A stretch of DNA of 64,000 nucleotides, taken from NCBI RefSeq assembly GCF_004341365.1, contig NZ_SLXH01000014.1:1-64000 (forward strand), given 5' to 3'. Source of the stretch: Simplicispira metamorpha. GTDB taxonomy: Bacteria > Pseudomonadota > Gammaproteobacteria > Burkholderiales > Burkholderiaceae_C. The translations under genes were made by a program, and so were the position numbers. The notes under the pieces were generated by a model that saw nothing but the letters and a program-made list of their open reading frames with translations, was not told the DNA's origin and made no database searches. Of this stretch, positions 1,981-21,671 are shown in pieces. The first letter of the stretch is position 1. Each line of letters opens with the position of its first letter.

Positions 1981-2736
1981 ATGCCATCCTGGAAATCCCG
2001 TCTGCGCGCCAGCGCCATTCACCTTGCTATCAGCCTGAGCGTTGCCACCTTGGCGGCGCTGGTGGTGTTTGGCTGGTGGTATCCATACCCGTACCGCGAG
2101 CTGTCGGGCGGGCGTGAGCTGTTTGCCTTGATGGTGGCCGTCGATGTGGTGCTGGGGCCGCTGATCACGCTGGTGATTTTCAATCCCGCCAAAACGCGCC
2201 GCCATCTGATGATGGACTTCACGGTGATTGGCCTGCTGCAGGTGGCCGCTCTGGCCTACGGGTTGTGGGCGGTGTTTACCACCCGGCCCGTTCACCTGGT
2301 TTTTGAATACCACCGCATGACCGTGGTGCATGCCGTGGACATCGAGCCTGAAACGCTGGCCAAAGCCCCGCCCGGTTTGCAGCAGTTGCCCTTGCGGGGG
2401 CCGACGCTGCTGTCGCTGCGGCCACTGCAGCCGTCGGAGGCCATCGAGTCCATTTTGCAAGCCACGGGTGGCATCCCCCAGGCGGCCCAGCCCTCTTTGT
2501 GGCAACCCTACGAAGCCGCCCATGAGCAGGTGCTGAAAGAGTCGCGCCCCGCAGCGCAGCTCAAAGAACGCTTTCCCAGCCATGCCGATGCCATTGATCG
2601 CGCGGTGCTCAGCACAGGTCGCTCCCTGGATGCGCTGCGCTATTTGCCCTTGATCTCACGCAAAACCGCCTGGACGGTGCTGATCGACGCGCAATCGACC
2701 CAGCCCGTGGGCTGGGTGGCGCTGGATTCGTTTTAA
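1981..2736 (+). CDS. TfpX/TfpZ family type IV pilin accessory protein
   Basis: Protein of 251 residues with three N-terminal membrane spans (about 12-34, 42-67 and 77-100) and a soluble C-terminal domain. The WWYPYPYRELSGGRELF stretch and the following VDVVLGPLITLVIF helix are typical of TfpX/TfpZ proteins, encoded beside the major pilin in Pseudomonas aeruginosa group I, III, IV and V pilus loci and in many betaproteobacteria, where they aid pilin assembly. ATG 1981 is used; an in-frame TTG at 1969 would add four residues. GC content returns to the window norm here, in contrast to the gene upstream. It lies between two glycosyl ligases in the same direction, with 55 and 226 bp gaps. No pilin gene is visible in the window. 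Confidence 0.8.
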   Translation: MPSWKSRLRASAIHLAISLSVATLAALVVFGWWYPYPYRELSGGRELFALMVAVDVVLGPLITLVIFNPAKTRRHLMMDFTVIGLLQVAALAYGLWAVFTTRPVHLVFEYHRMTVVHAVDIEPETLAKAPPGLQQLPLRGPTLLSLRPLQPSEAIESILQATGGIPQAAQPSLWQPYEAAHEQVLKESRPAAQLKERFPSHADAIDRAVLSTGRSLDALRYLPLISRKTAWTVLIDAQSTQPVGWVALDSF

Positions 2737-2805
2737 AGCCGAATCGGCTCCCAGCGCTCATGGAGCGTGCGCTTGCAGCTATCCAATTTGATGGATTTGG
2801 CGTGC
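2735..2805. repeat. Interspersed repeat copy 1 (diverged)
   Basis: Directly after the TfpX/TfpZ stop. It contains aagccgaatcggctcc and gtgcgcttgcagctatcc followed by aatttgat, matching the layout of the other copies (an aagc-caaa-type arm, a GC-rich middle, then the AGCTATC-AAA end). The remaining intergenic sequence to 2962 is GC-rich and shows no gene that I can support. Confidence 0.5.
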
Positions 2806-2962
2806 AGCAAGCCTGTGCTGCGCGTTGCCGCAGCGGGAGCAAGCCCGGCAAAAAGCGGGCAGTGCCGGTGCCTGGTGCGCCCACAATACGCCGCTGTTGC
2901 GCCTGCGCTGTGCAGGCGCTTGGGGGCCACTGGGCGCAGTGGCCGCTTTGCTGTGGTGCTCC

Positions 2963-4693
2963 ATGAACCTTTCTTCTTTTGTGCGCGCGCTGGTGCTGGG
3001 CCTGGCGGTGGCTTTGCCCATGGTGTTTCCGTTCACGCAGGCGCCGAATCCCAATTTCTGGCCGCTGATGGTGGCGTGGGGCTGTGGCTTGCTGGGGTTT
3101 GGCGTGCTGTGGTGGTGGCCTGCGTGGTGCGCGCGTTCGGCGCCGGGAGGGGCGGCTGAGGCGCTGGCCCCGGCGTTGTGGGCGCGCTGGGTGGCGGGCG
3201 GTTTGTTGTGGGGCGCACTGCTGGCGGCAGCGGCGGGGTTGTTGCAGTATTTTGATGGTGCCCTGGGCTGGGCGCCGTGGGTGGCACCGTCGTCACCGGG
3301 GCTGGCCATGGGCAATGTGCGCCAGCGCAACCAGCAGGCGTCGCTGCTCAGCGTGGGCGTGTGGGCGCTGCTGTGGCTGCTGGCGCAGGCGCAGGCACGT
3401 TTGCCCGTGCGCTGGTCTGCCACGGACGCAGATACCGACAGGGCTGTAGATGTGGGCACGGGCGCCGGTGCCATTGCAGGTGCAGGTGTGGATACCAGGG
3501 TGCCGCTGCCCGGGGCGGTGGGCCTGCTGGGGGTGTTTTCGGCCTGGGCGCTGGTGGCGTTGGCGCTGGCCAGCGCGGCCACGGCCTCGCGCACGGGGCT
3601 GTTGCAGTGGCTGGTGCTGGTGGCTTTGCTCTGGTGCTGGCGGGCGTCCATGGGGCGGTTGGCGCTGGTGCTGGCATTGGTGGGCGCGCTGGTGTACGGC
3701 GCAGCCGCCTGGCTGTTGCCGCAGCTGCTGTGGCAATGGACGGGGTTTCAGGCCGACGGGCTGCTGGGGCGTTTTACCGATGGCGGGCCTGTCTGCACCA
3801 GCCGGCGCGTGCTGTGGGCCAACGTGCTGCACCTGATTGCGCAAAAGCCCTGGTTGGGCTGGGGCTGGGGCGAGTTGGACTATGCCCACTACATCACGCT
3901 GTTTCCCGGGGAGCGCTTTTGCACGCTTCTGGACAACGCGCACAACCTGCCGCTGCACCTGGCCGTGGAGCTGGGGCTGCCGGTGGCGCTGGTGCTGTGC
4001 GGCGCGGCGGTGTGGGCGCTGTGGCGCGCGCAGCCCTGGCGCGAGGTCAACCCGGCGCGCCAGCTGGCCTGGGGCATGTTGGCGGTGGTGGGCATCCACA
4101 GCCTGCTGGAGTTTCCGCTGTGGTACGGGCCGTTTCAATGGATCACGGTGCTGGCGCTGGCGTTGTTGCTGGTGCCGCAGTCGGGGTCGGAGCGCGCCGG
4201 GGCGCCAGGGGCAGGGTGGGCACGGCATTGGGCGCACGCGCTGGTGCTGCTGCGCAGGCCGGGGGCGCTGGCGGTGCAGGCGCTGGTGGTGGCGTTATTG
4301 CTGGCCGGGGGGGGGTACGTCAGCGCCCAGTACCTGCGTCTGGCCCAGGTGTTTGTGCCGCCAGCGCAGCGCGCAGGTGCCTCCACTGAGGCGGTGCTGG
4401 CCCAGGTGGCCGGGACGCGGCTGTTTGCTGACCAGGTGGATTTTGTCGTGCTGACCACCACCCCGGTCACGCCCGCCACCGCTTCGCGCATCTACCCGCT
4501 GGCGCAGCAGGTGCTGCATTTCTCGCCCGAGCCCCGGGTGATCGAAGCGCTGATCGAGAGCGCCGCCCTGCTGGGCCACGACGCGGTGGTGGCCCAGCAC
4601 CTGCACCGCTACCGCGCCGCTTTCCCCGCCGAGTTTGCGCGCTGGTCAGCGGCCAACCGGGCCATCGCTGCGGGCGCGCGCCCGGCGCCGTAA
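2963..4693 (+). CDS. PglL/Wzy-type O-oligosaccharyltransferase, copy 2
   Basis: Polytopic membrane protein of 576 residues, a second member of the PglL/Wzy_C superfamily. Landmarks are GNVRQRNQQASLL (about residues 116-128, the equivalent of the NLGQPN motif), KPWLGWGWGEL (about 294), DNAHNLPLHLAVELGLP (about 323, catalytic-loop histidine) and HSLLEFPLWYGPFQ (about 378). A C-terminal hydrophobic helix near 450 is followed by a periplasmic helical tail. ATG 2963 is preferred because the protein then begins with a normal membrane helix; an open frame continues upstream to 2825 but reads as GC-rich non-coding sequence. Copy 1 and copy 2 share only the motifs, so this is not a recent duplication. 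The second ligase may prefer another glycan or acceptor (inference). Confidence 0.82.
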   Translation: MNLSSFVRALVLGLAVALPMVFPFTQAPNPNFWPLMVAWGCGLLGFGVLWWWPAWCARSAPGGAAEALAPALWARWVAGGLLWGALLAAAAGLLQYFDGALGWAPWVAPSSPGLAMGNVRQRNQQASLLSVGVWALLWLLAQAQARLPVRWSATDADTDRAVDVGTGAGAIAGAGVDTRVPLPGAVGLLGVFSAWALVALALASAATASRTGLLQWLVLVALLWCWRASMGRLALVLALVGALVYGAAAWLLPQLLWQWTGFQADGLLGRFTDGGPVCTSRRVLWANVLHLIAQKPWLGWGWGELDYAHYITLFPGERFCTLLDNAHNLPLHLAVELGLPVALVLCGAAVWALWRAQPWREVNPARQLAWGMLAVVGIHSLLEFPLWYGPFQWITVLALALLLVPQSGSERAGAPGAGWARHWAHALVLLRRPGALAVQALVVALLLAGGGYVSAQYLRLAQVFVPPAQRAGASTEAVLAQVAGTRLFADQVDFVVLTTTPVTPATASRIYPLAQQVLHFSPEPRVIEALIESAALLGHDAVVAQHLHRYRAAFPAEFARWSAANRAIAAGARPAP

Positions 4694-11649: not shown

Positions 11650-12102
11650 TCAGGCGTTGGCGCGTGTTTTGAGCCAGCGCATCAGCGCACCGACCAGCGG
11701 AATTTTTTCATACAGCTCTTCGGCGGCATCCCAGTAATCGCGGTGCAGCAGGATGCGGCCTTGCGCGTCCAGCACCAGGTGCGTGGCGCCGCGCACGGTC
11801 TGGGTCACGTGGCGGTCAAAGCGCTGGAAGCGGAAGTGAAAATCCCAGGTCAGAAAGCACTGCGTGCCTTGCACCACGCGCTGCGTGACCACAAAGCGCG
11901 GTGCATCCAGCGCCACAAACATGTGCTCGAACACGCCGGTGATGGCGGCAACGCCCTGCACGTCCTGGAACGGGTCTTTGAAGCGGGCGTTGGCGGCATA
12001 GAGCTGCCCGATCTGCGGCAGGTTCTCGGGCCGCAGGTGCTCAAAAAACGCCACGATGGCCGTGACGGCCTCGTCGGGGTGCAGGGTGATGGCAGCGGTC
12101 AT
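11650..12102 (-). CDS. Nuclear transport factor 2-like (SnoaL-like) protein, last gene of the LitR-linked cluster
   Basis: Protein of 150 residues with the NTF2-like cone fold: AFFEHLRPENLPQIGQLYAANARFKDPFQDVQG, then strands ending HLVLDAQGRILLHRDYWDAAEELYEK. Homologues occur beside COG2907/DUF1365/CFA-type genes in many proteobacteria. It may bind or isomerise a small lipid-derived ligand (inference). It lies 13 bp after the SDR stop and is probably co-transcribed. Confidence 0.82.
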   Translation of the reverse strand: MTAAITLHPDEAVTAIVAFFEHLRPENLPQIGQLYAANARFKDPFQDVQGVAAITGVFEHMFVALDAPRFVVTQRVVQGTQCFLTWDFHFRFQRFDRHVTQTVRGATHLVLDAQGRILLHRDYWDAAEELYEKIPLVGALMRWLKTRANA

Positions 12103-12115
12103 GGGGCAAAGCCTT

Positions 12116-12898
12116 TCACAGTCCGGTAAAGCGGCGCACCGCCGGAAAATACAGCCGGTAGGGCAGCAGGCGCAGCAGCTTCATCACCCGGGTAAAGCGC
12201 TTGGGAAAGTGGATGTCAAAGTCGCCGCGCTCCCAGCCTTGCACGATGGCGCTGGCGGCTTGCTCGGGCGAGATCAGCGCGGGCATGGAAAAGTCGTTTT
12301 GCGCCGTCAGCGGTGTGGCCACAAAGCCGGGGTTGACGATGCTCACGGCGATGCCTTCATGGTGCAAGTCCAGGTACAGCGCCTCGGCCAGGTGGATCAG
12401 CGCGGCCTTGGTCGGCCCGTAGGCCAGCCCCTGCGGCAACCCCCGAAACCCCGCCACGCTGCCCACCAGGCTGAGGTGGCCGGGCCGGCCCTGGCGCGCG
12501 GCGTCCAGAAAGGCGGGCAGCACGGCGCCCAGCACGTGCAGCGCGCCAGTGGTGTTGATCTGCTGGTGGCGCAGCGCATCGTCCAGGTCAAAGGTCTGGG
12601 CGCGCATGGCGTGGTAGTGGCCCGCGCAGTAGCACACCAAATCCAGCGGGCCCTGGGCCAGCAAGGTGGCGGCGCCAGCGGCTACGGCCTGGCGATCGGT
12701 GCTGTCCAGCGCCAGCGCCTGGCTGCCGGGGTGCTGGGCCACAAACGATTGCAGCGCGTCGGCGTTGCGCGCCGACACCACCACCTGTGCGCCGCGCGCG
12801 TGCAGTGCGGCAGCGGTGGCGCGGCCTATGCCGCTGGAGGCGCCCACCAGCCAGACGCGCTGGCCCGGCCAGTGGGTGATGCGAGGGTTCAATGCCAT
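12116..12898 (-). CDS. Short-chain dehydrogenase/reductase
   Basis: Classical SDR of 260 residues: VGASSGIG cofactor motif (residues 18-25), CYCAGHYH in place of the usual NNAG, SLVGSVAG with the catalytic serine region, and YGPTK (about 160-164). The C-terminal part after VNPGFVATPL includes a hydrophobic helix MKLLRLLPYRLYF, so it may associate with membrane. NAD(P) preference cannot be decided. Cluster membership suggests a lipid-derived alcohol or ketone substrate (inference). It is 41 bp downstream of the DUF3833 gene. Confidence 0.88.
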   Translation of the reverse strand: MALNPRITHWPGQRVWLVGASSGIGRATAAALHARGAQVVVSARNADALQSFVAQHPGSQALALDSTDRQAVAAGAATLLAQGPLDLVCYCAGHYHAMRAQTFDLDDALRHQQINTTGALHVLGAVLPAFLDAARQGRPGHLSLVGSVAGFRGLPQGLAYGPTKAALIHLAEALYLDLHHEGIAVSIVNPGFVATPLTAQNDFSMPALISPEQAASAIVQGWERGDFDIHFPKRFTRVMKLLRLLPYRLYFPAVRRFTGL

Positions 12899-12939
12899 GG
12901 GGTGTGTACCGGTTCAGCGCTGGCAAGCAGTGCGGGCAG

Positions 12940-13473
12940 TCAGCGCTTGGTGAACGACAGCGTGACCTCGCCCAGGCGCAGGCCAAACTTGGTCATGGTG
13001 GCGCGGTTGAGCATCACGCGCTCGTCGATCAGCACCATCCAGTCGTCAAACTGCACCTCATAGACCTTGTCGTCCACGGGCAGTTGCAGGGTGTATTTCC
13101 AGCGGAAGGTGTTGCCTGCGGTGTGGCCCTCGGCCTCGCCCACCACGTCGTCGGCGGTGCCGGTGATGCGGCCATCGGCGTGGCGCGTCAGGCGCCAGAT
13201 GCGCCGCCCGGTGGTGCCGTCCGAGTAGCTGAAAGCCTCGTCGAGCACGCCCTGGTTGCCCTGCCACTGGCAGTCCATGACCACGGTAAAGCGCTTGACG
13301 ATGCGGCCACTGCGGTCCTGGAACATGCCGTGGGCATCGACGGTGCCGTTGAAATATTGGGCCAGATCGAGGGTGGGCGTCTGGCTGGCGTAGTCGCCCA
13401 CCTGCGGGCTGGCGCAGCCGATGAGGCTGGCGCTGCTGGCCACGGCAGCGCTGAGAACAAGGCGTCGTTGCAT
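12940..13473 (-). CDS. DUF3833 family lipoprotein
   Basis: Protein of 177 residues with an N-terminal signal and lipobox (LIGC at about residues 17-20), so probably membrane-anchored in the periplasm. The body matches DUF3833: LDLAQYFNGTVDAHGMFQDR, RFTVVMDC, YSDGTTGRRIWRL and DWMVLIDERVMLNRATMTKFG. The lipocalin-like strand pattern suggests a lipid-binding barrel, but no function is established. Six bp separate it from the transporter stop. Confidence 0.87.
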   Translation of the reverse strand: MQRRLVLSAAVASSASLIGCASPQVGDYASQTPTLDLAQYFNGTVDAHGMFQDRSGRIVKRFTVVMDCQWQGNQGVLDEAFSYSDGTTGRRIWRLTRHADGRITGTADDVVGEAEGHTAGNTFRWKYTLQLPVDDKVYEVQFDDWMVLIDERVMLNRATMTKFGLRLGEVTLSFTKR

Positions 13474-13479
13474 GGTGAG

Positions 13480-14904
13480 TTACCTTTCAGAAAAGGGCGC
13501 AGGGTGTGCAAAACTTGCGGGGCTTGCGGGGCTTGCGGGGCTTGCGGGGCTTGCGGGGCTTGCGGGGTGCGCCGCTGGGGCGGGCTGGCCCGCACCCGCA
13601 GCGGCAGGCCGCACGATGAGGCCATACAGCGCCGCTGCCGCCAGCAGCTTGAGGGCGCAGGGCAGCACGGCATAGGCCAGGGCCAGGGTGCGCAGGGCTT
13701 CTGGGTCGCGTGTGCCGGGCGTGTAGCCCAGGGCATCGAGCAGCGGCAGCGCCAGGCCTGCGGCCAGCGCCAGGTTGAGTTTGGTGGCGAAGTTCCACCA
13801 GCCAAAGTAGGCGCCTTCGTGGCGGCCCGCGTCACCTGCCTGGGCGATCACGCCCGCCAGCAGCGCGCCGGGCAGCGCCAGATCGGTGCCCAGCGCCACA
13901 CCCGAGAGCGCGCACACCGCAATAAACGCCGCCACATCGCCCGCGCCCAGCGTGGCCGTCCAGCCAAACACGGCCACCGCCAGCAGCATGCCCGCCAGCC
14001 AGCTGCGTGCCAGCCCCCAGCGCGCCACCGCGCGCAGCCACAGCGGTATCGACAGCGCAGCGCACAAAAAATACGTGCCCAGAAACAGCGGCTCTTGCGC
14101 GGGCGTGGCGCGCAGCCGATCCTGGATGAAAAACAGCACCAGCGTGGCTGGCACCGCACTGGCAATGCCGCTGACCATGAACACCGCCAGCAGGCGCCGG
14201 AACGCTGTGCTGTGCCAGGGGTGCCACAGGCTGGCCGGGGGCGGCGGTGCAGGCGAGGTGGTCGGTGCTGTAGCCGTGGCCGGTGCGGCGCTGGGCGCAG
14301 GTGCGCGCGTCCAGGCCAGCCAGCCCAGTGCCAGCGCGGCGCTGAACACCGCCAGCATTGCCGGCAGTCCGGCCAGCGCAGGCAGCACCGAGGCCAGCAC
14401 CACGCCGACCAGCGCGCAGCCCTCGCGCCAGGCCACGGTGCGGCTGCGTTGCAGCTCGTTGCCGCCGAGCCGCGCGCCCCAGGATTGGTGGGCAATGCCC
14501 AGCAGGCTGTAGGCGGTGTAGGTCAGCAGCAGCGCCAGCGCCGCCCAGACCAGCAGGCGCTGCGGCTGGCGGGGCAGGTCGGCGCTGAAGCGTTCGGGCA
14601 CGAACAGCGCCGCCAGCCCCAGCACCAGCGCCAGCGCTGCCAGCGCCCCCGCTGTCCAGACGGCGCGCAGCGAGTGGGCAAACAGCCGGTCGCTGAAGCG
14701 ACCCAGCAGCGGGTCGATAGCGGCGTCCAGCAGGCGCGCGCCCAGCAGCAGCGCGCCCAGCGTGGCCAGCGGCATGGCGTAGGCCTGGGCGTAGTGGTGG
14801 GGCAAGAGCACGTACAGCGGCAGCGCCACAAAGGCCAGCGGCAAGCCCAGCAGGCCATAGGCCAGGCCTTGGCGGGCCGTCAGGGGCTGCTGGCTGTTCG
14901 TCAT
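13480..14904 (-). CDS. MFS/GPH-type transporter with a PAS-repeat tail
   Basis: Inner-membrane carrier of 474 residues with about twelve spans, of the glycoside-pentoside-hexuronide:cation symporter type (family traits: LLGARLLDAAIDPLLGRFSDR near residues 50-70 and GWWNFATKLNLALA near 390). A proline/alanine/threonine-rich central loop (about 215-240) separates the halves. The C-terminal tail contains Pro-Ala-Ser units encoded by a perfect 9-bp tandem repeat. Start ATG 14904 overlaps the previous gene by 4 bp; the frame stays open far upstream but that part is antisense to the other cluster genes. Similar transporters are part of singlet-oxygen or light-induced clusters in other proteobacteria. 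Confidence 0.86.
   Translation of the reverse strand: MTNSQQPLTARQGLAYGLLGLPLAFVALPLYVLLPHHYAQAYAMPLATLGALLLGARLLDAAIDPLLGRFSDRLFAHSLRAVWTAGALAALALVLGLAALFVPERFSADLPRQPQRLLVWAALALLLTYTAYSLLGIAHQSWGARLGGNELQRSRTVAWREGCALVGVVLASVLPALAGLPAMLAVFSAALALGWLAWTRAPAPSAAPATATAPTTSPAPPPPASLWHPWHSTAFRRLLAVFMVSGIASAVPATLVLFFIQDRLRATPAQEPLFLGTYFLCAALSIPLWLRAVARWGLARSWLAGMLLAVAVFGWTATLGAGDVAAFIAVCALSGVALGTDLALPGALLAGVIAQAGDAGRHEGAYFGWWNFATKLNLALAAGLALPLLDALGYTPGTRDPEALRTLALAYAVLPCALKLLAAAALYGLIVRPAAAGAGQPAPAAHPASPASPASPASPASPASFAHPAPFSER
13514..13567. repeat. Tandem 9-bp repeat, six perfect copies of cttgcgggg
   Basis: Six identical 9-bp units on the plus strand lie inside the 3' end of the transporter gene, where the minus strand reads (Pro-Ala-Ser)n. 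As the unit is a multiple of three, copy-number change would alter tail length without a frameshift. Confidence 0.93.
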
Positions 14905-15500
14905 GGCGCGGGCAGGGCCAGCAGCGCCTGGCGCAGCTGTGGCTCGGAGGTGCGCGGCGACAGCCAGATGCCGAAAAACAGCCGGGCAAATTCGGCATCG
15001 GCCACCTCGCCCACGGTGCGCCCCTGCATCTGGAACACGGCCCCCGCGCCGGGGCGGTACAGGCCCATGAGCCGGTCGCCGGGCTGCACGTCGGGCAGGG
15101 TCGCTTGCAGTGCCTGTTGCCAGCGCGCGCCCTGCTCGGGCGAGAAGTTGCCCACGCGGCGCATTTCTTCGATGGAGCGCTGCGCAATGGCCTGCGCCGT
15201 GAACGCGCGCTGGTAGGTCAGCTCCAGCGCTAGCGGCAGGGCGGCGTAGTCCTGCGCGGCAAAGCCGGGGCTGACCCACAGGCGCGCCTCGTAAATGGCC
15301 AGGCCCCAAAAGCGCAGCACGCCCTGGCCGCGCCCCTGCAACCCGGCCATGGGCGCTTGGGTGTCTGCGGCTGTAGCGGTGCCTGCGGAGGTGGTGGCGG
15401 GCATGGCAGCAGCAGACGCCACAGCGGCGCCAGAATATAGGTAAAAAGTGGTTGTAACGCCCGCCAATAGTGCGCAACCAGCTATCATTTTGATATTCAT
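14901..15500 (-). CDS. Exported chalcone-isomerase-like protein
   Basis: Protein of 199 residues: signal peptide (about 1-30), Ala/Thr-rich linker, then a chalcone_3-type domain (GQGVLRFWGLAIYEARLWV at about 58-76, QRAFTAQAIAQRSIEEMRRVG, YRPGAGAVFQMQG, FFGIWLSPRTSEPQLRQALL). Bacterial members of this fold bind fatty acids or are of unknown function, and they recur beside cyclopropane-synthase-like genes. Start ATG 15498-15500 overlaps the methyltransferase stop by 4 bp. About the first 23 codons coincide with a copy of the genome's interspersed repeat, so the signal peptide appears repeat-derived. Confidence 0.82.
   Translation of the reverse strand: MNIKMIAGCALLAGVTTTFYLYSGAAVASAAAMPATTSAGTATAADTQAPMAGLQGRGQGVLRFWGLAIYEARLWVSPGFAAQDYAALPLALELTYQRAFTAQAIAQRSIEEMRRVGNFSPEQGARWQQALQATLPDVQPGDRLMGLYRPGAGAVFQMQGRTVGEVADAEFARLFFGIWLSPRTSEPQLRQALLALPAP
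15430..15498. repeat. Interspersed repeat copy 6, encoding a signal peptide
   Basis: On the minus strand it reads aatatcaaaatgatagctgg, then ttgcgcactattggcgggcg and gttacaaccac. It has the TCAAAATGATAGCTG start seen in copies 5 and 10 and forms codons 2-23 of the chalcone-isomerase-like gene. Confidence 0.6.
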
Positions 15501-16735
15501 TCGCGCTCCAGGGTGTACTGCACCAGGTTGATGTTGCCCATGGTGAAAGCCGCTTCGCAGTACGCCAGGTAAAACTCCCAGATGTGCAAAAAGCGCTGGT
15601 CAAAGCCTTGTTGCAGGATGTGGGTGCGCTGGGCCACAAAGCGCTCGTGCCAGCGCCGCAGCGTCTCGGCGTAATCCAGACCAAAGGCCAATTCATCGAC
15701 CACACGCAGCCCGGCGGCCTGGGCCTGGCGGCGGAACTCGCGCGGGCAGGGCAGGCAGCCGCCGGGGAAGATGTACTGCTGGATGAAGTCGGTGGAGCGG
15801 GTGTAGCGGTCAAACAGCGCGTCGTCGATGACGATGCTCTGGATGCAGGCGCGCCCGCCGGGTTTGAGCAGCCGCTGCACGCTCTGGAAGTAGGTGGGCC
15901 AGTATTCCTGCCCCACGGCCTCGATCATCTCGATGGAGCAGATGGCGTCGTAGGGGCCGTCCTGGATGTCGCGGTAGTCCTGCAAGCGCAGGTCGGCTTG
16001 GCTGCCCACGCCCAGGCGCGCCATGCGCTGGCGGGCAAAGTCCAGCTGCTCGGTCGAGAGCGTCACGCCGGTGAGCGTGGCACCGAACTCGGTGGTGGCC
16101 ATCTCGGCCAGCGCGCCCCAGCCGCAGCCGATCTCCAGCACGCGGCTGCCCGGCGCCACGCCCGCCAGGGTCAGTGCCCGGCGCACCTTGGCGTGCTGGG
16201 CGGCGCTCAGGTCGCCGTCCAGGCGGCCCTCAAACCAGGCGGACGAGTAGTTCATGGTCTCGTCCAGCCACAGTGCGTAAAAGGCGTTGCCCAGGTCGTA
16301 GTGGGCGTGGATGTTTTTCTGGCTGTTGGCGCGCGTGTTGCGGTGCAGCAGATGCTTGAGGCGGTACAGCAGCCGCCCGGCCCAGGTGCCATAGACCATG
16401 CCCTCGATGGCCTGGCGGTTGGCAATCAACAGCTTGAGCAGCTCGGCCAGGTGCGGGGTGGTCCAGTCGCCCGCTATGTAGCTCTCGGCAAAGCCGATGT
16501 CGCCGGACTTGAGCGCTGCGGCAAAGACGTTCCAGTTTTTCAGGGTGATGGCGGCCACGGTGCCGCCGCCGGGGCCAAAGTGCTGCACGCTGCCGTCGGG
16601 CAACTGCACCGTGAGCGCGCCGTGTTGCAGGCGCGCGAGCAGGCGCAGGGCGGTGCGGGCGCTGGCGGGGATGTTGGCGGGCAGGCGGGCCGGGGCCAGG
16701 GCGCTGGCCGCGCGGGGGGCGGTGGTGGTGTTCAT
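15497..16735 (-). CDS. Cyclopropane-fatty-acyl-phospholipid synthase family methyltransferase
   Basis: S-adenosylmethionine-dependent enzyme of 412 residues that acts on unsaturated acyl chains of membrane phospholipids. Features: N-terminal lipid-binding region with IGFAESYIAGDW, then AHYDLGNAFYALWLD, the SAM motif VLEIGCGWGALAE (about residues 195-207), SIEMIEAVGQEYW, and FIQQYIFPGGCLP. Family members either form cyclopropane rings or, as with UfaM of Rhodobacter, methylate the chain on the way to furan fatty acids; sequence alone does not separate these. ATG 16735 overlaps the DUF1365 stop by 4 bp, so translation is probably coupled. Confidence 0.91.
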   Translation of the reverse strand: MNTTTAPRAASALAPARLPANIPASARTALRLLARLQHGALTVQLPDGSVQHFGPGGGTVAAITLKNWNVFAAALKSGDIGFAESYIAGDWTTPHLAELLKLLIANRQAIEGMVYGTWAGRLLYRLKHLLHRNTRANSQKNIHAHYDLGNAFYALWLDETMNYSSAWFEGRLDGDLSAAQHAKVRRALTLAGVAPGSRVLEIGCGWGALAEMATTEFGATLTGVTLSTEQLDFARQRMARLGVGSQADLRLQDYRDIQDGPYDAICSIEMIEAVGQEYWPTYFQSVQRLLKPGGRACIQSIVIDDALFDRYTRSTDFIQQYIFPGGCLPCPREFRRQAQAAGLRVVDELAFGLDYAETLRRWHERFVAQRTHILQQGFDQRFLHIWEFYLAYCEAAFTMGNINLVQYTLERE

Positions 16736-17748
16736 GGCGGTGCGGTCGGTGAAGTGGCGGGCAATGGGGTGGGCGTGGCAGGCTGCGACGCTGTGGGCCA
16801 GGTTGCTGGCGCGCGGGACGTGGCGGCTGAGGCTGTGGGCAACGTGGTGGGCGATACCGCAGGCGCCGCGCCGCCATGCGTCACGCTGCTGGCCGGCGGC
16901 GCGGGCAGGGAGCGAAATCCCACCCGCTTGGCCCACAGGTGCAGGGCATGCCAGTGGATGCGGGCGATGGTGGCCAGCGTCATGGCCGGGTAGCCCCACA
17001 GAGCGCGGCGCAGGCTCTGGCGGGTGATGGGCGCCAAGGTGCCGCTGACGCTGGTTTGCAGCAGCACGCCCTGGTCGTCGTGGTGGTCTATGCGCACTAC
17101 GGTGTGCGCCTGTCCGCCGCGCTCCGTGCGCATAAAGCGAAAGCGGTAGCTGCCCGCCACATCGCAAAACGGCGAGACGTGGAACACCTTGTCGGCGTGC
17201 AGTTCGGCGCCGTAGCGCGGCGCGTCCAGCAGGTAGCAGTGGCGCTGGCCAAAGGTGTTGTTGACCTCGGCCACGATGGCGCGCAGGCTGCCATCCGCCC
17301 GGTGGCAGTACCAGAAGCTCACGGGCTTGAAGGTGTAACCCAGCACGCGTGGGTAGCAATGCAGCCAGGCCTCGCCCGTGGCGTCGGTGATGCCGTGGGC
17401 GTGCAGCAGGCCATCGAGCCAGGCCAGCGCACCGCCCGCTGCGGCGCTGCGCCCATCGCCGTGGTCGGTGTCGTGAAAGCTGATGGCCCCCGCGCAGTTC
17501 AGCGCCAGGGGCAGCGCTGCCCGGGGCTGGGCTTGCAGCGTGCGCATGGGCAGCAGCAAGAAAAACGTGCGGTAGGCAAAGGCGTGGTGCGCTGGACGCA
17601 GGCGGGTGTGGCGCACCTGGCCGAAGCCGATCAGCGGCGCAGCCGGGGCAGCCACCGCTGGTGCCACCGCAGCCAGCGGGGCCGCAGCGGTCAGCGCAGC
17701 TGGTGTGGCCGGGCCAATGGCGGATGCCGCAGGGCGGTGCGCGGTCAT
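16732..17748 (-). CDS. DUF1365 family protein (COG3496)
   Basis: Protein of 338 residues. The core (about 40-285) carries the DUF1365 hallmarks: RHTRLRPAHHAFAYRTFFL, SFHDTDHGDG, YPRVLGYTFKPVSFWYC, AEVNNTFGQRHCYLL and KVFHVSPFCDVAGSYRFRF. It is flanked by an Ala/Pro-rich N terminus and a 60-residue Ala/Thr/Pro-rich C-terminal tail, both of low complexity. DUF1365 is nearly always encoded between a COG2907 FAD protein and a CFA-like methyltransferase, as here, but its reaction is not known to me. It starts 3 bp after the FAD gene stop. Confidence 0.9.
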   Translation of the reverse strand: MTAHRPAASAIGPATPAALTAAAPLAAVAPAVAAPAAPLIGFGQVRHTRLRPAHHAFAYRTFFLLLPMRTLQAQPRAALPLALNCAGAISFHDTDHGDGRSAAAGGALAWLDGLLHAHGITDATGEAWLHCYPRVLGYTFKPVSFWYCHRADGSLRAIVAEVNNTFGQRHCYLLDAPRYGAELHADKVFHVSPFCDVAGSYRFRFMRTERGGQAHTVVRIDHHDDQGVLLQTSVSGTLAPITRQSLRRALWGYPAMTLATIARIHWHALHLWAKRVGFRSLPAPPASSVTHGGAAPAVSPTTLPTASAATSRAPATWPTASQPATPTPLPATSPTAPP

Positions 17749-17751
17749 GGC

Positions 17752-19059
17752 TCAGGCCGCCTGCGCCTGGGGCGCGCGTTGCAGGGCCAGCAACTGGTCG
17801 GCTACGGCCAAGCCCGAGCGCAGGCCGTCTTCATGGAAGCCGTAGCCCGTCCAGGCGCCGCAGAACCAGGTGTGCTGGCGGCCTTGCAGTTGCGGTACAT
17901 GGCCTTGGGCGCGGATGGCAGCCATGTCAAACACCGGGTGGGCGTAGTCGTAGCTGCCCAGCACGCGTTGGGGCGCGATCTCGCGCACGGGGTTCAGCGA
18001 TACCAGCACCGGCTGGGTGAATGGCAGCGGCTGCAACTGGTTGAGCAGGTAGTGCAGGCACACGCGGGCGCTTTCGCGGTTGCTGTGCGGGGCGCGCTCG
18101 TAGTTCCAGGCGGCCCAGGCTGCGCGCCGCTGGGGCAGCACGCTGGTGTCGGTGTGCAGCACAGCGCGATTTTGCTGGTAGCGGATGGCGCCCAGCACGG
18201 CGCGTTCTTCGGCGCTGGGCTGGGCCAGCAGTGCCAGCGCCTGGTCGCTGTGCACGGCCAGCACGACCTGGTCAAAGTGCTCGTCGTGGCCGTCGGTGAG
18301 CACACGCACGCCGCTGGCGCTGCGTTCAATGCGCCGCACGGGGGTGGACAGGCGCTTGTCGGCCACACCGGCCAGGATTTTGTCCACGTACTGGCGCGCG
18401 CCCCCGGCCACTGTCCACCACTGCGGGCGGTCGCTCACTTGCAGCAGGCCGTGGTTGTGGCAAAACCGCACCATGGTGGCCACCGGAAAGCGCAGCATCT
18501 GGTCGGTGGGGCAGCTCCAGATGCAGCCCAGCATGGGCAAAAAATACCAGTCGCGGAAGGCGGTGCCAAAGCGGTGCTGGTTGAGAAAGTCGCCCAGCGG
18601 CTGCACCAGGGCCGACTCCGCCCCGGCCTGCGCCAGCTGCGTACACAGCCGGTTAAAGCGCAGCAGGTCGCGCAGCATGCCCCAAAAGCGCGGGCTGACC
18701 AGGTTATTGCGCTGGGCAAACACGCTGGCCAGGCTGGAGCCGCTCCACTCCAGCGCGTTGCCGCCGCGCGCATCGGGCACCTGCACCGAGAACGACATGT
18801 CCGATTGGGCCGTGGGCACGCCCAACTCGGCCAGCAGGGCAATCAGCTGCGGGTAGGTGCGCTCGTTGAACACCAGAAAGCCTGTGTCCACGCCATGCGT
18901 GACCGGCTGGCCCTGCACGGTGGGCAAGGTGACATCCACGGTGTGGGTGTGGCCGCCAAAGTAGTCACCTGCCTCCAGCAGCGTGACCTGGGCTTGACTG
19001 CGCAGGCGGTGGGCCACCGCCAGGCCAGAGATGCCTGAGCCGACAACAGCGACCCTCAT
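17752..19059 (-). CDS. FAD/NAD(P)-binding amine-oxidase-like oxidoreductase (COG2907)
   Basis: Protein of 435 residues with an N-terminal Rossmann dinucleotide motif VGSGISGLAVAHRLR (about 6-20), an acidic ribose contact LLEAG, and the DTGFLVFNERTYPQL stretch typical of COG2907. C-terminal FAD contact: CGAWTGYGFHEDGLRSGLAVAD (about 397-418). Related proteins act as desaturase-like enzymes on methylated fatty acyl chains in furan fatty acid synthesis; this is family-level inference. It is the first gene of an eight-gene minus-strand unit running to 11650. The frame is open to 19293, but ATG 19059 places the Rossmann motif at the N terminus as expected. Confidence 0.9.
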   Translation of the reverse strand: MRVAVVGSGISGLAVAHRLRSQAQVTLLEAGDYFGGHTHTVDVTLPTVQGQPVTHGVDTGFLVFNERTYPQLIALLAELGVPTAQSDMSFSVQVPDARGGNALEWSGSSLASVFAQRNNLVSPRFWGMLRDLLRFNRLCTQLAQAGAESALVQPLGDFLNQHRFGTAFRDWYFLPMLGCIWSCPTDQMLRFPVATMVRFCHNHGLLQVSDRPQWWTVAGGARQYVDKILAGVADKRLSTPVRRIERSASGVRVLTDGHDEHFDQVVLAVHSDQALALLAQPSAEERAVLGAIRYQQNRAVLHTDTSVLPQRRAAWAAWNYERAPHSNRESARVCLHYLLNQLQPLPFTQPVLVSLNPVREIAPQRVLGSYDYAHPVFDMAAIRAQGHVPQLQGRQHTWFCGAWTGYGFHEDGLRSGLAVADQLLALQRAPQAQAA

Positions 19060-19380
19060 GGCCGCACACCACCGACCTGGACCGGGAAGAAAAAAGTTGC
19101 GAAGCGCCCCCGAGCGAATAAGTGAGGGAGGGAGGAGAAGCGCTCCGGGATTGCAGCCAGAACCCGCAGGTCTGAAAGGCTTCGCAACGGTAATGGGTGG
19201 AACGCCACTGGGCGCTCCATGGGAGAGTGGAGCGGTGCCGGTGCGCAAAAGTTCCGGGGCGGGCGTGTGAGCAAATCCAACAAAAGTAACCACATGGAGG
19301 GCTGGGCGGGCGTGGGTGCCCGCCGGGGGGAGTGGGGCCTGCGCGCAGGGCCGTTGCGGTGCTTCATCATGGACAACATT
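19060..19380. other. Intergenic region between the lipid cluster and litR, no supported gene
   Basis: The left 240 bp stay open in both the minus-strand frame of the FAD gene (to 19293) and a plus-strand frame (19031-19270). Neither has a family I recognise or a clear ribosome site. The segment holds aagcgcccccgagcg and gagaagcgctccggg. It is probably the untranslated leader of the minus-strand operon or a decayed insertion. Confidence 0.4.
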
Positions 19381-19382
19381 CC

Positions 19383-19426
19383 TTTTTGTCTAGGACATTT
19401 GTATATTTCAGCACAATTTGTCCATC
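19383..19426. promoter_or_regulatory. Candidate LitR operator / promoter region
   Basis: An AT-rich island in GC-rich surroundings, 80-120 bp before litR. It contains three TTGTnnA words in the same orientation: ttgtcta (19386-19392), ttgtata (19399-19405) and ttgtcca (19418-19424). Bases 19393-19423 also form an imperfect inverted repeat with ggacattt- and -atttgtcc ends. MerR/B12 regulators of this kind bind repeated short elements upstream of divergent targets and of their own gene. Assignment is from position and pattern only. Confidence 0.45.
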
Positions 19427-19502
19427 TGCGCTTTAATCCGTTCCGTGATGGCTGCACAAGCCAGTGGGTCATGGGGCATGGGCCCGGTTTGAGGTTTGAT
19501 AT

Positions 19503-20459
19503 ATGAATGAGCACATGTCCGGGGCCAGCCCCGGTTGGTCGATTGCCGCAGTAGAGCGGGATACGGGTTTGTCCAAAGACACGCTGCGCGTGTGGGAGCG
19601 CCGCTATGGTTTTCCGCAGCCCGCGCGCGATGCCTTTGATGAGCGCCTGTACCCGCCCGAACAGGTCGAGCGCTTGCGCCTGGTTCGCCGCCTGCTGGAC
19701 GCCGGGCACCGCCCTGGGCGCGTGGTGGCACTGGACTTGCCCGCGTTGCAGGCCCTGGCGGTTCCCGCTGCCGGCGTTGCCACCGGGGCCCGCCACGCGC
19801 AGGCAGGCCCGGCGGTGCTGCCCGATGTGGCCGCCTGCCTGGCGCTGGTGCAACGCCACGATGCGCCGGGCCTGCGCCGCCAGTTGGCCCAGGCGGCGCT
19901 GCGGCTGGGGTTATTGCAGTTTGTCACCGGGTTGGTGGCGCCGCTGACCACGGCGGTGGGCGACGCCTGGATGCAGGGCCGGTTCCAGGTGTTTGAGGAG
20001 CACCTCTACACCGAGTGCATCACCGGCGTGCTGCGCGGCGCCATTGCCAGCGTGCCCGCGCACCCCGACGCGGCGGGCCCCCGGGTGCTGTTGACCACGT
20101 TTCCGGGTGAGCCGCATGCCATTGGGTTGCTGATGGTGGAGGCGCTGCTGGCACTGGAGGGCTGCGCCTGCCTGTCGCTGGGCACGCAAACCCCGGTGCC
20201 CGAGATTGCCGCCGCCGCCCTGGCGCACCGCGCCGACATCGTGGCCCTGAGCTTTACGCCCGTGCAGGGCGCCAGCGCCGTGCTGACCGCCCTGCGCGAG
20301 CTGCGCCAGACGCTGCCCGCCGCAGTGACCGTGTGGGCCGGGGGGAGCTGCCCGGCGCTGGACCGGCAGGGCGTGGTGGCGGGGGTGCTGCGGCTGCACG
20401 CCCTGGAGCGCCTGCCCGAGCAGGTGGCGCTGTGGCGGGCCGCTGCGGCCCCTGCCTGA
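19503..20459 (+). CDS. litR: LitR/CarH-type MerR family regulator with B12-binding light-sensor domain
   Basis: Protein of 318 residues. Residues 12-75 form a MerR winged helix (WSIAAVERDTGLSKDTLRVWERRYGFPQP...LYPPEQVERLRLVRRLL). Residues about 110-190 are the helical cap, with W156 and E166-H167 in the exact W-x9-EH spacing that in CarH shields and senses the upper adenosyl ligand. GEPHAIG gives E203-x-H205-x2-G208, the cobalamin-binding motif whose His is the lower axial ligand. Proteins of this type bind adenosylcobalamin in the dark, repress DNA, and are released by light. It is divergent from an eight-gene lipid-modification unit, its likely target. It ends one base before the stop of the convergent HD-GYP gene. 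Confidence 0.9.
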   Translation: MNEHMSGASPGWSIAAVERDTGLSKDTLRVWERRYGFPQPARDAFDERLYPPEQVERLRLVRRLLDAGHRPGRVVALDLPALQALAVPAAGVATGARHAQAGPAVLPDVAACLALVQRHDAPGLRRQLAQAALRLGLLQFVTGLVAPLTTAVGDAWMQGRFQVFEEHLYTECITGVLRGAIASVPAHPDAAGPRVLLTTFPGEPHAIGLLMVEALLALEGCACLSLGTQTPVPEIAAAALAHRADIVALSFTPVQGASAVLTALRELRQTLPAAVTVWAGGSCPALDRQGVVAGVLRLHALERLPEQVALWRAAAAPA

Positions 20460-21671
20460 TCAGACCATGGCCAGCAGCCGCTCCAGCGGGATTTGCACGC
20501 GCACTTCGCGCTGCGAAACCACGCCGGTGATTTTCCAGGCGGGCTGGCTGCTGTCGCGCGGAATCATCTCGCCTGTGGGCATGCCTTCGCGGTTGAGCAG
20601 CACGGCCACCTTGGGCGTGGTGGCGGTGGCACCGCGCCGCACTACCAGCCCCACTTCCTGGCTGGTCAGGCGCACAAAAGTGCCGGGTGGGTACACGCCC
20701 AGGGTTTTGACGATGGCAGCGCCCGCTTCATCGACCTGGTGCGCTTCGTCGTAGTAACACGACTGCATGGCCGCCGTGACCGGCATGGGGGTGCGCGAAA
20801 CCCGGGGTGCCAGGCGCGCAGCAAAAATGTCGGCGCGCTGCATCAGGCGGGCCATTTGCTGGGCCTCGCTTTTGCTGGCCAGCGTGCCAGGGGCGCGGTG
20901 GTGGTGCATGCGCACGGCGTCCAGCCACAGCGTGTCGCGCACGCCCAGCGATTGCAGCAGGGCCACGGTGCGGTCGGCGTGGTTTTCCACGGCGGCAATC
21001 TGTCCGGGCGAGAGGGGGTCTTTTTGCACGGCCAGCTGGTCTTGCAGCTCGGTCATGGCGCAGTTCATGCTCAGGGCGGCGCAGCCGATGCGCAGCACCC
21101 GGTCTTCGGTCCAGCGCAGCGTGGCGCGGGCCACCACCATGCACACGCAGGCCACCAGCATGCTGTGGGTGGCGCTGTACATGTGCGTCTCCTGCCCCGA
21201 GATGCGGATCAGTGCCAGCAGCGTGGCATCGGGCGTTTGCAGGCATTGCTGGGCCAGTTCGCCGTGCAGTTCCAGAAAGCGGTCGGCAAACTCGCCCTCG
21301 CCCACCTGCGGCGAGCGCAGCAACTGGGTGGCACGCTGCTGCAAGTCGGGCCAGCTGGACGGGCCAGCGGGCGCCGCCTGGTTGCGCGCTGGCTGTGCAG
21401 CGGCCTCCATCTGCATGCTGGCGATGTCTTTGAGGGGTTTTTCCGACAGCAGCATGCGCTGCAATTGCGACAGGTAGGTGCGGTGGCTGTCGCCCGACTC
21501 TTCGGTGTCCACACACAGCTGGACTCCGCGCGCCAGCAACACCTCCAGCTCCTCGCGGTTGCGGATGACGAAGCCTTTGTGTGCCAGCAGCCCCCCGGCA
21601 GCGCCGCGCAGCGCAAAGGGCAGGGGTTGCCCCAGGGGGATGGTGTCGATGTTGAGGGTGAGGAGGTTCAT
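20460..21671 (-). CDS. Degenerate HD-GYP-like domain protein
   Basis: Protein of 403 residues. The N-terminal part (about 1-130) matches the region before the catalytic domain in HD-GYP proteins (NIDTIPLGQPLPFALRGAAGGLLAHKGFVIRN). The middle follows the HD-GYP helix order (HSMLVACVCMVVAR, LSPGQIAAVENHADRTVALLQSLG, MHHHRAPG, MARLMQRADIFAARLAPR), but the expected HD pair in the 'LLHDIGK' position reads SMN and no GYP is present. It is therefore probably inactive against cyclic di-GMP, or acts as a binding protein. ATG 21671 was chosen for the clean N terminus; the frame is open to 21890. Confidence 0.72.
   Translation of the reverse strand: MNLLTLNIDTIPLGQPLPFALRGAAGGLLAHKGFVIRNREELEVLLARGVQLCVDTEESGDSHRTYLSQLQRMLLSEKPLKDIASMQMEAAAQPARNQAAPAGPSSWPDLQQRATQLLRSPQVGEGEFADRFLELHGELAQQCLQTPDATLLALIRISGQETHMYSATHSMLVACVCMVVARATLRWTEDRVLRIGCAALSMNCAMTELQDQLAVQKDPLSPGQIAAVENHADRTVALLQSLGVRDTLWLDAVRMHHHRAPGTLASKSEAQQMARLMQRADIFAARLAPRVSRTPMPVTAAMQSCYYDEAHQVDEAGAAIVKTLGVYPPGTFVRLTSQEVGLVVRRGATATTPKVAVLLNREGMPTGEMIPRDSSQPAWKITGVVSQREVRVQIPLERLLAMV

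Follow-up and report, generated by a model that had tools for sequence, protein, structure and literature searches.

Which signals govern a lipid-modification operon that lies back to back with the gene for a vitamin B12-type regulator? The question is raised by a stretch of 64,000 nucleotides (nt) of Simplicispira metamorpha DNA (assembly GCF_004341365.1, contig NZ_SLXH01000014.1, positions 1 to 64,000), referred to here as the window. Within it, the regulator gene litR is divergent from an eight-gene unit on the minus strand that begins with a homologue of ufaD, a gene of furan fatty acid synthesis. An original prediction, made from the sequence alone, had named light sensed through B12 as the input to this unit. 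The locus probably represents a furan-lipid operon under B12-light repression and probable RpoE boosting, whose leader contains a new small RNA (sRNA) that occurs family-wide. As a photo-oxidative and membrane-stress locus, it would join two inputs, light through LitR and B12 and an RpoE-type promoter, to one lipid output, and this reading is given a probability of about 0.58. The features that carry it are:

19503-20459, plus strand: litR, class I LitR/CarH-type MerR and B12-binding regulator of 318 amino acids (Pfam, motifs and fold)
19370-19424, no strand assigned: putative LitR operator array, consisting of TGGACAA (19370-19376), TTGTCTAGGACAT (19386-19398) and TTGTCCA (19418-19424), recognised as a dyad across loci
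19228-19255, minus strand: RpoE/extracytoplasmic function (ECF)-type promoter motif, GGAACTT (19255-19249), 16 nt, then CTCCA (19232-19228), recognised by its recurrence upstream of the RNA
19082-19190, minus strand: structured RNA of 109 nt, a three-way junction (covariance model R1 and covariation), with P1 arms at 19188-19179 and 19105-19096, a variable P2, a P3 bearing the C-rich loop CUUCUCCUCCCUCCCUC (19140-19124) and a U tract at 19095-19090
17752-19059, minus strand: ufaD-like flavin adenine dinucleotide (FAD) oxidoreductase (Pfam Amino_oxidase / NAD_binding_8), assigned to the RSP1091/UfaD type from family and gene order

The LitR protein contains the MerR_1, B12-binding_2 and B12-binding domains, all above the Pfam cut-offs. 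Its residues W156-x9-E166-H167 and E203-x-H205-x2-G208 are exactly those that the original prediction had listed, and an alignment of 19 sequences (the window protein and 18 homologues with 43-65% identity to it) shows no variation at W156, E166, H167, E203, H205 or G208. The signature of cobalamin photoreceptors has been given as GxxW, EH, GxxH and GxxxP (PMC11796333). In window LitR it is found as G153/W156, E166/H167, G202/H205 and G227/P231, and all of these positions except G202 are invariant in the alignment. The closest PDB sequence match is Thermus CarH (5c8d, E 2.5e-26). The top Foldseek matches of an AlphaFold2 model (predicted local distance difference test, pLDDT, 87) are likewise CarH entries, 5c8d and 5c8e (E from 4e-17); the root-mean-square deviation is 14-22 Å over the full length, where domain placement differs, and about 2.6-3 Å for entries with the B12 domain only. 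Similar to the class I proteins CarH of Thermus thermophilus and LitR of Bacillus megaterium, window LitR combines a MerR helix-turn-helix with four-helix-bundle and Rossmann B12 domains, and it has the W-x9-EH and ExHxxG motifs in common with CarH. The neighbourhood differs, as CarH-type regulators lie beside carotenoid genes and window LitR beside a furan-lipid-type operon. The protein is predicted to be a class I, adenosylcobalamin (AdoCbl) photoreceptor-like repressor that would bind B12 and respond to light.

Light control of comparable genes has been described elsewhere. Blue light induces a cfa-like gene, VC1122, in Vibrio cholerae (PMC5241685). In Pseudomonas, light induces a nine-gene unit (PME6650-PME6610) in a region with phrB, a short-chain dehydrogenase (SDR), an FAD oxidoreductase and ufaM; the nearby class II LitR was judged unable to bind B12, and a LOV protein is the light sensor (PMC9758184). 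As far as gene names allow a judgement, the class II LitR proteins PplR/PmlR exert LitR-family control over the same kinds of lipid genes. Window LitR could in principle act in the same manner, as the effector of another photoreceptor with no B12 light sensing of its own, since the class II LitR of Pseudomonas mendocina binds the promoter of a similar operon together with the LOV protein (PMC9758184). The Pseudomonas proteins operate without a functional B12 domain and with a LOV partner, and their consensus is T(G/A)TACA-N12-TGTA(C/T)A (PMC9758184), as against TTGTC-N3-GACAA in the window. Unlike class II, window LitR has both B12 domains above cut-off, its signature residues are invariant in the 19 sequences, and a cobalamin adenosyltransferase is encoded in the genome, which makes a role as mere effector quite improbable.

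The pairing of litR with ufaD recurs among relatives. From 60 genomes (the window's own and relatives), 27 loci (L004-L030, own included) were taken as long LitR matches with at least 42% identity, and ufaD is divergent within the examined flank in 24 of them, L020, L026 and L030 being the exceptions. The best 80 LitR loci of a named genome collection were also examined; eight of these are the same DNA as loci from the 60-genome set. A divergent ufaD lies upstream within 3 kb in 69 of the 80. Seven of the remaining 11 cover less than 1 kb upstream of litR, which leaves 69 of 73 informative loci; L072, L103, L127 and L141 have no ufaD within 3.7-10 kb upstream. UfaD is accompanied by both other furan-pathway proteins, UfaO and UfaM, in 61 of the 80. 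Among the genera represented are Acidovorax, Comamonas, Simplicispira, Giesbergeria, Polaromonas, Rhodoferax, Curvibacter, Limnohabitans, Rubrivivax, Methylibium, Thiomonas and Cupriavidus, the last through a locus that covers 600 bp upstream. The class I (B12) litR-ufa arrangement is widespread. Chance does not account for the residue pattern and the locus, because the former is invariant in 19 sequences and the divergent pair is kept in 69/73 loci.

A glutathione peroxidase gene (gpx) stands between litR and ufaD in 36 of the best 80 loci (Pfam GSHPx on one example) and is absent from that position in the window. In L025, a locus of another family, it is replaced by FolE2, a type I GTP cyclohydrolase (2671-3474, Pfam), and a FolE2-like frame was recognised by eye only at 545-1366 of L021, also of another family. 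The folE gene of the Pseudomonas LitR regulon recalls these two cases. Such neighbours are in keeping with a photo-oxidative stress unit.

Upstream of litR, many loci share the array T(A/G)GACAA - TTGTC(C/T)(A/T)(A/G)GACAA - TTGTC(C/T)A. The central dyad, TTGTC-N3-GACAA, is present with at most one mismatch in 88 of 110 loci, together with the far half-site in 41 and with the near half-site in 26; means were 0.0 for dyad and half-sites in 20 dinucleotide shuffles. Without the eight duplicates, the dyad is found in 80 of 102 distinct loci, and at two mismatches, a figure that has no shuffle control, in 91 of 102. In the window's own genome, TTGTCYWRGACAA with one mismatch yields 13 dyad sites (7 for the reversed control), and the litR site alone has flanking half-sites in register. 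A wider LitR regulon in this genome was considered and rejected, as there is no array in register outside the litR site, and of the two exact matches one lies among DnaA-box-like repeats (contig C5, by eye) and the other inside a long reading frame (C22). The first of these (C5:116064-116076, L144) sits amid TTATCCA/TGGATAA repeats and possibly marks an origin region. LitR action looks local. Visual inspection of some relatives suggests a sigma-70-like promoter that spans the array and points to gpx or ufaD. In L013-L016 a gap of only about 125-180 bp, with one common operator region, separates litR from ufaD. Control of ufaD by LitR is presumed for the window genome.

The segment 19082-19255, between this array and ufaD, holds a structured RNA and an RpoE-type motif that were absent from the original prediction. 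The 95 nt upstream of the RNA contain GGAACTT and, 14-17 nt further on, a TC(T/C/G)A- or TCTC-type element in 39 of 50 loci, a pattern that was written after the sequences had been seen and counted over loci many of which are related. The 95 nt downstream gave 0/50, and shuffles gave a mean of 0.06 and a maximum of 1. The motif is close to what we take to be the RpoE consensus. Light through B12 is supported as an input by the anatomy of LitR, its linkage and the operator-like array; as the sole input it is probably incomplete, because the conserved RpoE-type motif and the RNA lie directly before ufaD.

Twelve copies of the RNA align gap-free over 109 columns, and in a plain MAFFT alignment of them 8 of 25 predicted pairs are preserved through two-sided changes. 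Covariance model R1 has a single match in the own genome (19190-19082, minus strand, E 3e-28) and no other even at E<=10. Among the 60 genomes, E falls below 1e-9 in 29, own included, namely 23/26 of the own genus and 6/10 from other genera of the family; none of the 24 genomes of other families matches (best E 0.03). The 29 model-aligned copies (27 distinct) have standard pairs in 98.1% of cells, with two-sided change in 18 of 25 pairs, as against 34-45% paired cells in slid controls. A second set of 45 copies outside the training of model R2 (42 distinct) is 95.5% paired, with two-sided change in 20/25. The covariation is present in all three main helices, and a chance hairpin was rejected on its account. 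The stems vary while the C-rich loop is fixed, CCUCC being present in 74/74 copies (L063, a partial match with E 0.0032, is excluded from the RNA counts). With few candidates scored per genome, R2 matches at E<=0.01 were obtained for 285 of 399 genomes of the family, corresponding to 107 of 141 genera. A class-wide draw of 274 genomes gave three matches at E<=0.001, none of them outside the own family. An element of L021 that looked similar by eye was dropped, as R1 has no match at E<=1 in its genome (G037).

Inverted repeats of this kind might also be DNA elements of the repetitive extragenic palindromic (REP) type or chance terminators, and betaproteobacterial repeat elements of about 90 bp have been described (PMC3110155). 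Such elements would not be expected to fit what is seen here: the own genome has a single match, as does each of the 285 except G067, which has two; the covariation extends to every main helix; and a promoter motif lies upstream. An origin as a DNA repeat is accordingly very remote. No Rfam 15 family scored above gathering for 18 RNA copies (6 of 9 loci in one search, all 12 loci in another); the first search gave no match at E<=1, and the second gave three sub-gathering matches, whose overlap with the RNA never exceeds its last 33 nt. The RNA was not found in Rfam or in the literature searched, which did not extend to most subscription journals.

The RNA could be a cis-acting leader or attenuator of ufaD only. 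The distance from the model start to the ufaD match was measured in 24 ufa-context copies and is 131-152 nt in 22 of them (L041 has a BLAST match that starts within the gene, and L062 has 246 nt), and in the window a weak terminator-like element at 19112-19100 is followed by U6. Against this, 28 of 74 copies have no ufaD behind them; 45 are followed by ufaD and one is cut by a contig end, a split biased by the fact that 21 of the 74 were obtained via litR and 22 were top scorers. Pairing is at least as good without ufaD, 98.4% of cells in 27 copies as against 95.5% in the 44 before ufaD (L129, L179 and L180 excluded). Of the 28, 26 are followed by glutathione S-transferase (GST) and/or PurB, and L050 and L052 by neither. 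In L036 (genome G015), a decayed litR-ufa cluster, with a C-terminal remnant of litR, a ufaD-like start and SnoaL remnants, flanks an RNA that is followed by GST and PurB; RNA and promoter motif look intact. The order glnE-k20460-[RNA]-gst-purB is a recurrent neighbourhood in relatives, where k20460 denotes the frame at 20460-21671 that adjoins litR in the window; it has a weak HD_5 match below cut-off, and GlnE lies beyond it.

Because it is kept and well paired without ufaD, has a conserved loop and looks intact in L036, the RNA probably functions in its own right, and a purely cis-acting role is unlikely. Probably it is an independent sRNA gene that doubles as the leader of ufaD. Most likely it acts in trans, as its loop CUUCUCCUCCCUCCCUC can pair with Shine-Dalgarno-like sequences. 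According to a crude script, a second terminator follows 1 of 24 copies before ufaD and 8 of 26 elsewhere (L167 is excluded from promoter and terminator counts); with a second terminator so scarce before ufaD, transcripts from the RpoE-type promoter could run on into ufa.

Known sigma-E-dependent sRNAs include MicA, RybB and VrrA. The RNA resembles them by analogy only, in its RpoE-type promoter motif and its expected translation-blocking mode, and no sequence relation was shown. A closer likeness is offered by the alpha-r14/cuckoo RNAs, in which an ultraconserved unpaired CCUCCUCCC occurs in each of three hairpins with variable stems (PMC10746234), and by the Rhodobacter CcsR RNAs, which have a role in stress defence (PMC10253847). 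An invariant unpaired CCUCC-type loop, varying stems and a stress setting are common to these alphaproteobacterial RNAs and to the window RNA. The latter differs in having one C-rich loop within a three-way junction, not three hairpins, and in its neighbours, GPx, GST/PurB and ufaD. The exact CCUCCUCCC is present in 8 of 29 copies and absent from that of the window. Membership in alpha-r14/cuckoo was rejected because of the single loop and the 8/29 count. It is possible, if on balance doubtful, that the window RNA and its copies form an undescribed RpoE-controlled, anti-Shine-Dalgarno sRNA family, spread through a betaproteobacterial family at a stress locus (gpx, RNA, gst/purB), whose members act in trans and, before the light-controlled furan-lipid operon, also serve as an attenuating leader of ufaD, so that light and envelope stress converge on one lipid operon.

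The operon itself extends over 11650-19059. Its eight minus-strand genes, assigned from reading frames and Pfam, stand in the order that had been claimed, and the several 4-bp overlaps reported with it amount to three (UfaO/UfaM, UfaM/Chalcone_3 and Chalcone_3/MFS), the remaining intergenic gaps being 3, 6, 41 and 13 bp. The ufaD-like protein presumably corresponds to COG2907. The other seven genes are:

16732-17748, minus strand: ufaO-like DUF1365 protein (Pfam DUF1365, E 6e-78)
15497-16735, minus strand: ufaM-like CMAS/CFA-type methyltransferase (Pfam; the protein was scanned without its first Met, the start being at 16735, which leaves the family call unaffected)
14901-15500, minus strand: chalcone-isomerase-like protein (Pfam Chalcone_3; export signal by eye only)
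13480-14904, minus strand: MFS_2 (GPH-type) carrier (Pfam and NCBIfam)
12940-13473, minus strand: DUF3833 protein (Pfam; lipoprotein nature by eye only)
12116-12898, minus strand: SDR (Pfam)
11650-12102, minus strand: SnoaL/NTF2-like protein (Pfam SnoaL_2)

The furan fatty acid gene set, CMAS methyltransferase, FAD oxidoreductase and DUF1365 protein, is present together in this unit at the level of Pfam families. It has been reported that RSP1091 (UfaD) and RSP1090 (UfaO, a DUF1365 protein) are required after UfaM for methylated furan fatty acid, that three Rhodopseudomonas palustris homologues of UfaM, UfaD and UfaO suffice for this product, and that RSP1087-1089 of Rhodobacter sphaeroides are dispensable for it (PMC7380195). 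The window operon, with three genes in these families, would thus represent a mostly known pathway, and the 'four or five enzymes of unknown reaction' of the original prediction were an overstatement, as the reactions of UfaD, UfaO and UfaM have been published and RSP1087-1089 can be dispensed with.

Compared with the cyclopropane fatty acid synthase 5z9o, window UfaM has Ser in place of a Cys and Gln in place of a His. These two positions we take to be bicarbonate ligands. The exchange would suit a methyltransferase without cyclopropane ring closure. For the UfaO/DUF1365 core (16852-17628), AlphaFold2 gives a confident model (pLDDT 91.5). Nothing in the PDB matches its fold at E<=0.001 (the best E is 0.009, and the template modelling score by query length is at most 0.22 among the 50 matches listed), so there is no cofactor hint; judged from the model, the furan-forming oxygenase UfaO may possess a new fold.

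In R. sphaeroides, RSP1091-1087 and ufaM are under the control of sigma-E and ChrR. UfaD, UfaO (DUF1365) and UfaM are the families that this set has in common with the window (PMC7380195). The differences lie in the regulation and arrangement: the window has an RpoE-type motif instead of TGATC-N18-CGTAT, no ChrR above cut-off, an adjacent LitR, and ufaM inside the operon. The TGATC-N18-CGTAT consensus (PMC5241685) has no site at two or fewer mismatches in 19060-19502, and 16 sites in the whole window as against 16.3 by chance. The best score for a ChrR-type anti-sigma factor in the own genome is 29 bits with a cut-off of 124.5, so that none stands above it; this and other absences are provisional, the genome being 98.6% complete. 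ChrR control was rejected on this ground, in keeping with the claim that the input differs from sigma-E/ChrR. The claim that the organism is not a phototroph was also supported, as the genome has no Photo_RC match and is therefore probably not that of an anoxygenic phototroph with that reaction centre (the search was aimed at Photo_RC, other light-harvesting systems not being searched). Two photolyase/cryptochrome-type matches are present, the second of which (L182, C8:25916-26371) contains an in-frame TGA and may be a pseudogene or reflect a sequence error.

A mechanism can be proposed from these parts. In the dark, AdoCbl-loaded LitR oligomers on 19370-19424 would block transcription in the litR/ufa intergenic region, as the anatomy of LitR and the CarH/LitR precedent suggest. 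In the light, breakage of the Co-C bond would cause LitR to leave the DNA and the divergent unit to be expressed. If the enzymes act as their families do, UfaM would methylate cis-vaccenoyl chains, UfaD would desaturate them and UfaO would close the furan ring with O2. The RpoE-type promoter at 19255-19228 would start an RNA of an estimated 140 nt or so, whose three-way junction would display the C-rich, anti-Shine-Dalgarno-like loop and which would end in a U tract (19095-19090) some 30 nt short of the ufaD start codon. Termination at the U tract would release a trans-acting sRNA, and read-through would give ufa mRNA.

Several observations weigh against this picture. LitR differs from CarH in scoring 113 bits where the NCBIfam CarH equivalog cut-off is 400, which argues against 'the CarH ortholog' and not against a class I LitR, and in having Met157 at the position of His132, the bis-His light-state residue of CarH; that position is variable among other photoreceptors (PMC11796333). 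The RNA has no R2 match in 114 of the 399 family genomes, both large pairing sets were fitted to the model and are biased towards structure, and 11 of 50 copies lack the promoter motif. In G005, G013, G014, G020 and G035, the litR-ufaD pair is on a different contig from the RNA, which is thus not needed for the pair. The second terminator was detected in no more than 8/26 copies outside the ufa context, and the terminator-like element at the RNA end is weak (5 pairs; 1 found, 0.4 in shuffles). A scan for loop targets (GGAGGAGA-N3-9-ATG) gave 4 sites, none of them convincing, where the reversed control gave 2. Even with one mismatch allowed, 22 of 102 loci lack the dyad, including the three most distant homologues, L031-L033. 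Finally, the distance between the window operator and ufaD is about 310-365 bp, with the RpoE-type motif in between, and a promoter scan of 19040-19520 called no sigma-70 site with 9 of 12 matches.

From the last two points it follows that LitR might regulate only itself here, and the adjacent gpx in relatives, with the window ufa operon driven by the RpoE-type promoter alone. The loci L158-L162 agree with such an arrangement, having k20460, gpx, RNA and ufaD in the same direction and, over the 1.5 kb that precede the RNA, no match to litR. It is at odds with the divergent litR-ufaD pair in 69 of 73 informative loci, and with the short common operator region of L013-L016, and is regarded as somewhat unlikely. 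Joint control of the ufa operon by LitR and the RpoE-type promoter remains the preferred reading.

Neither the furan pathway nor light-dependent regulation of such operons through LitR-family proteins is new. A class I (B12) LitR with this gene order is new as far as was searched; Sumi 2018/2020 could already mention class I LitR beside ufa genes. The furan-lipid pathway was worked out in a phototroph, and here the same gene families stand beside LitR and behind an RpoE-type motif. This gives a testable form to two questions, whether non-phototrophic betaproteobacteria use B12 photoreceptors to control their membrane chemistry, and what role is played by a widespread, strongly covarying RNA at an oxidative-stress locus. 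If the proposal for the RNA is true, the family would possess a betaproteobacterial stress sRNA of one-loop, anti-Shine-Dalgarno design, with a logic comparable to that of the alphaproteobacterial cuckoo RNAs.

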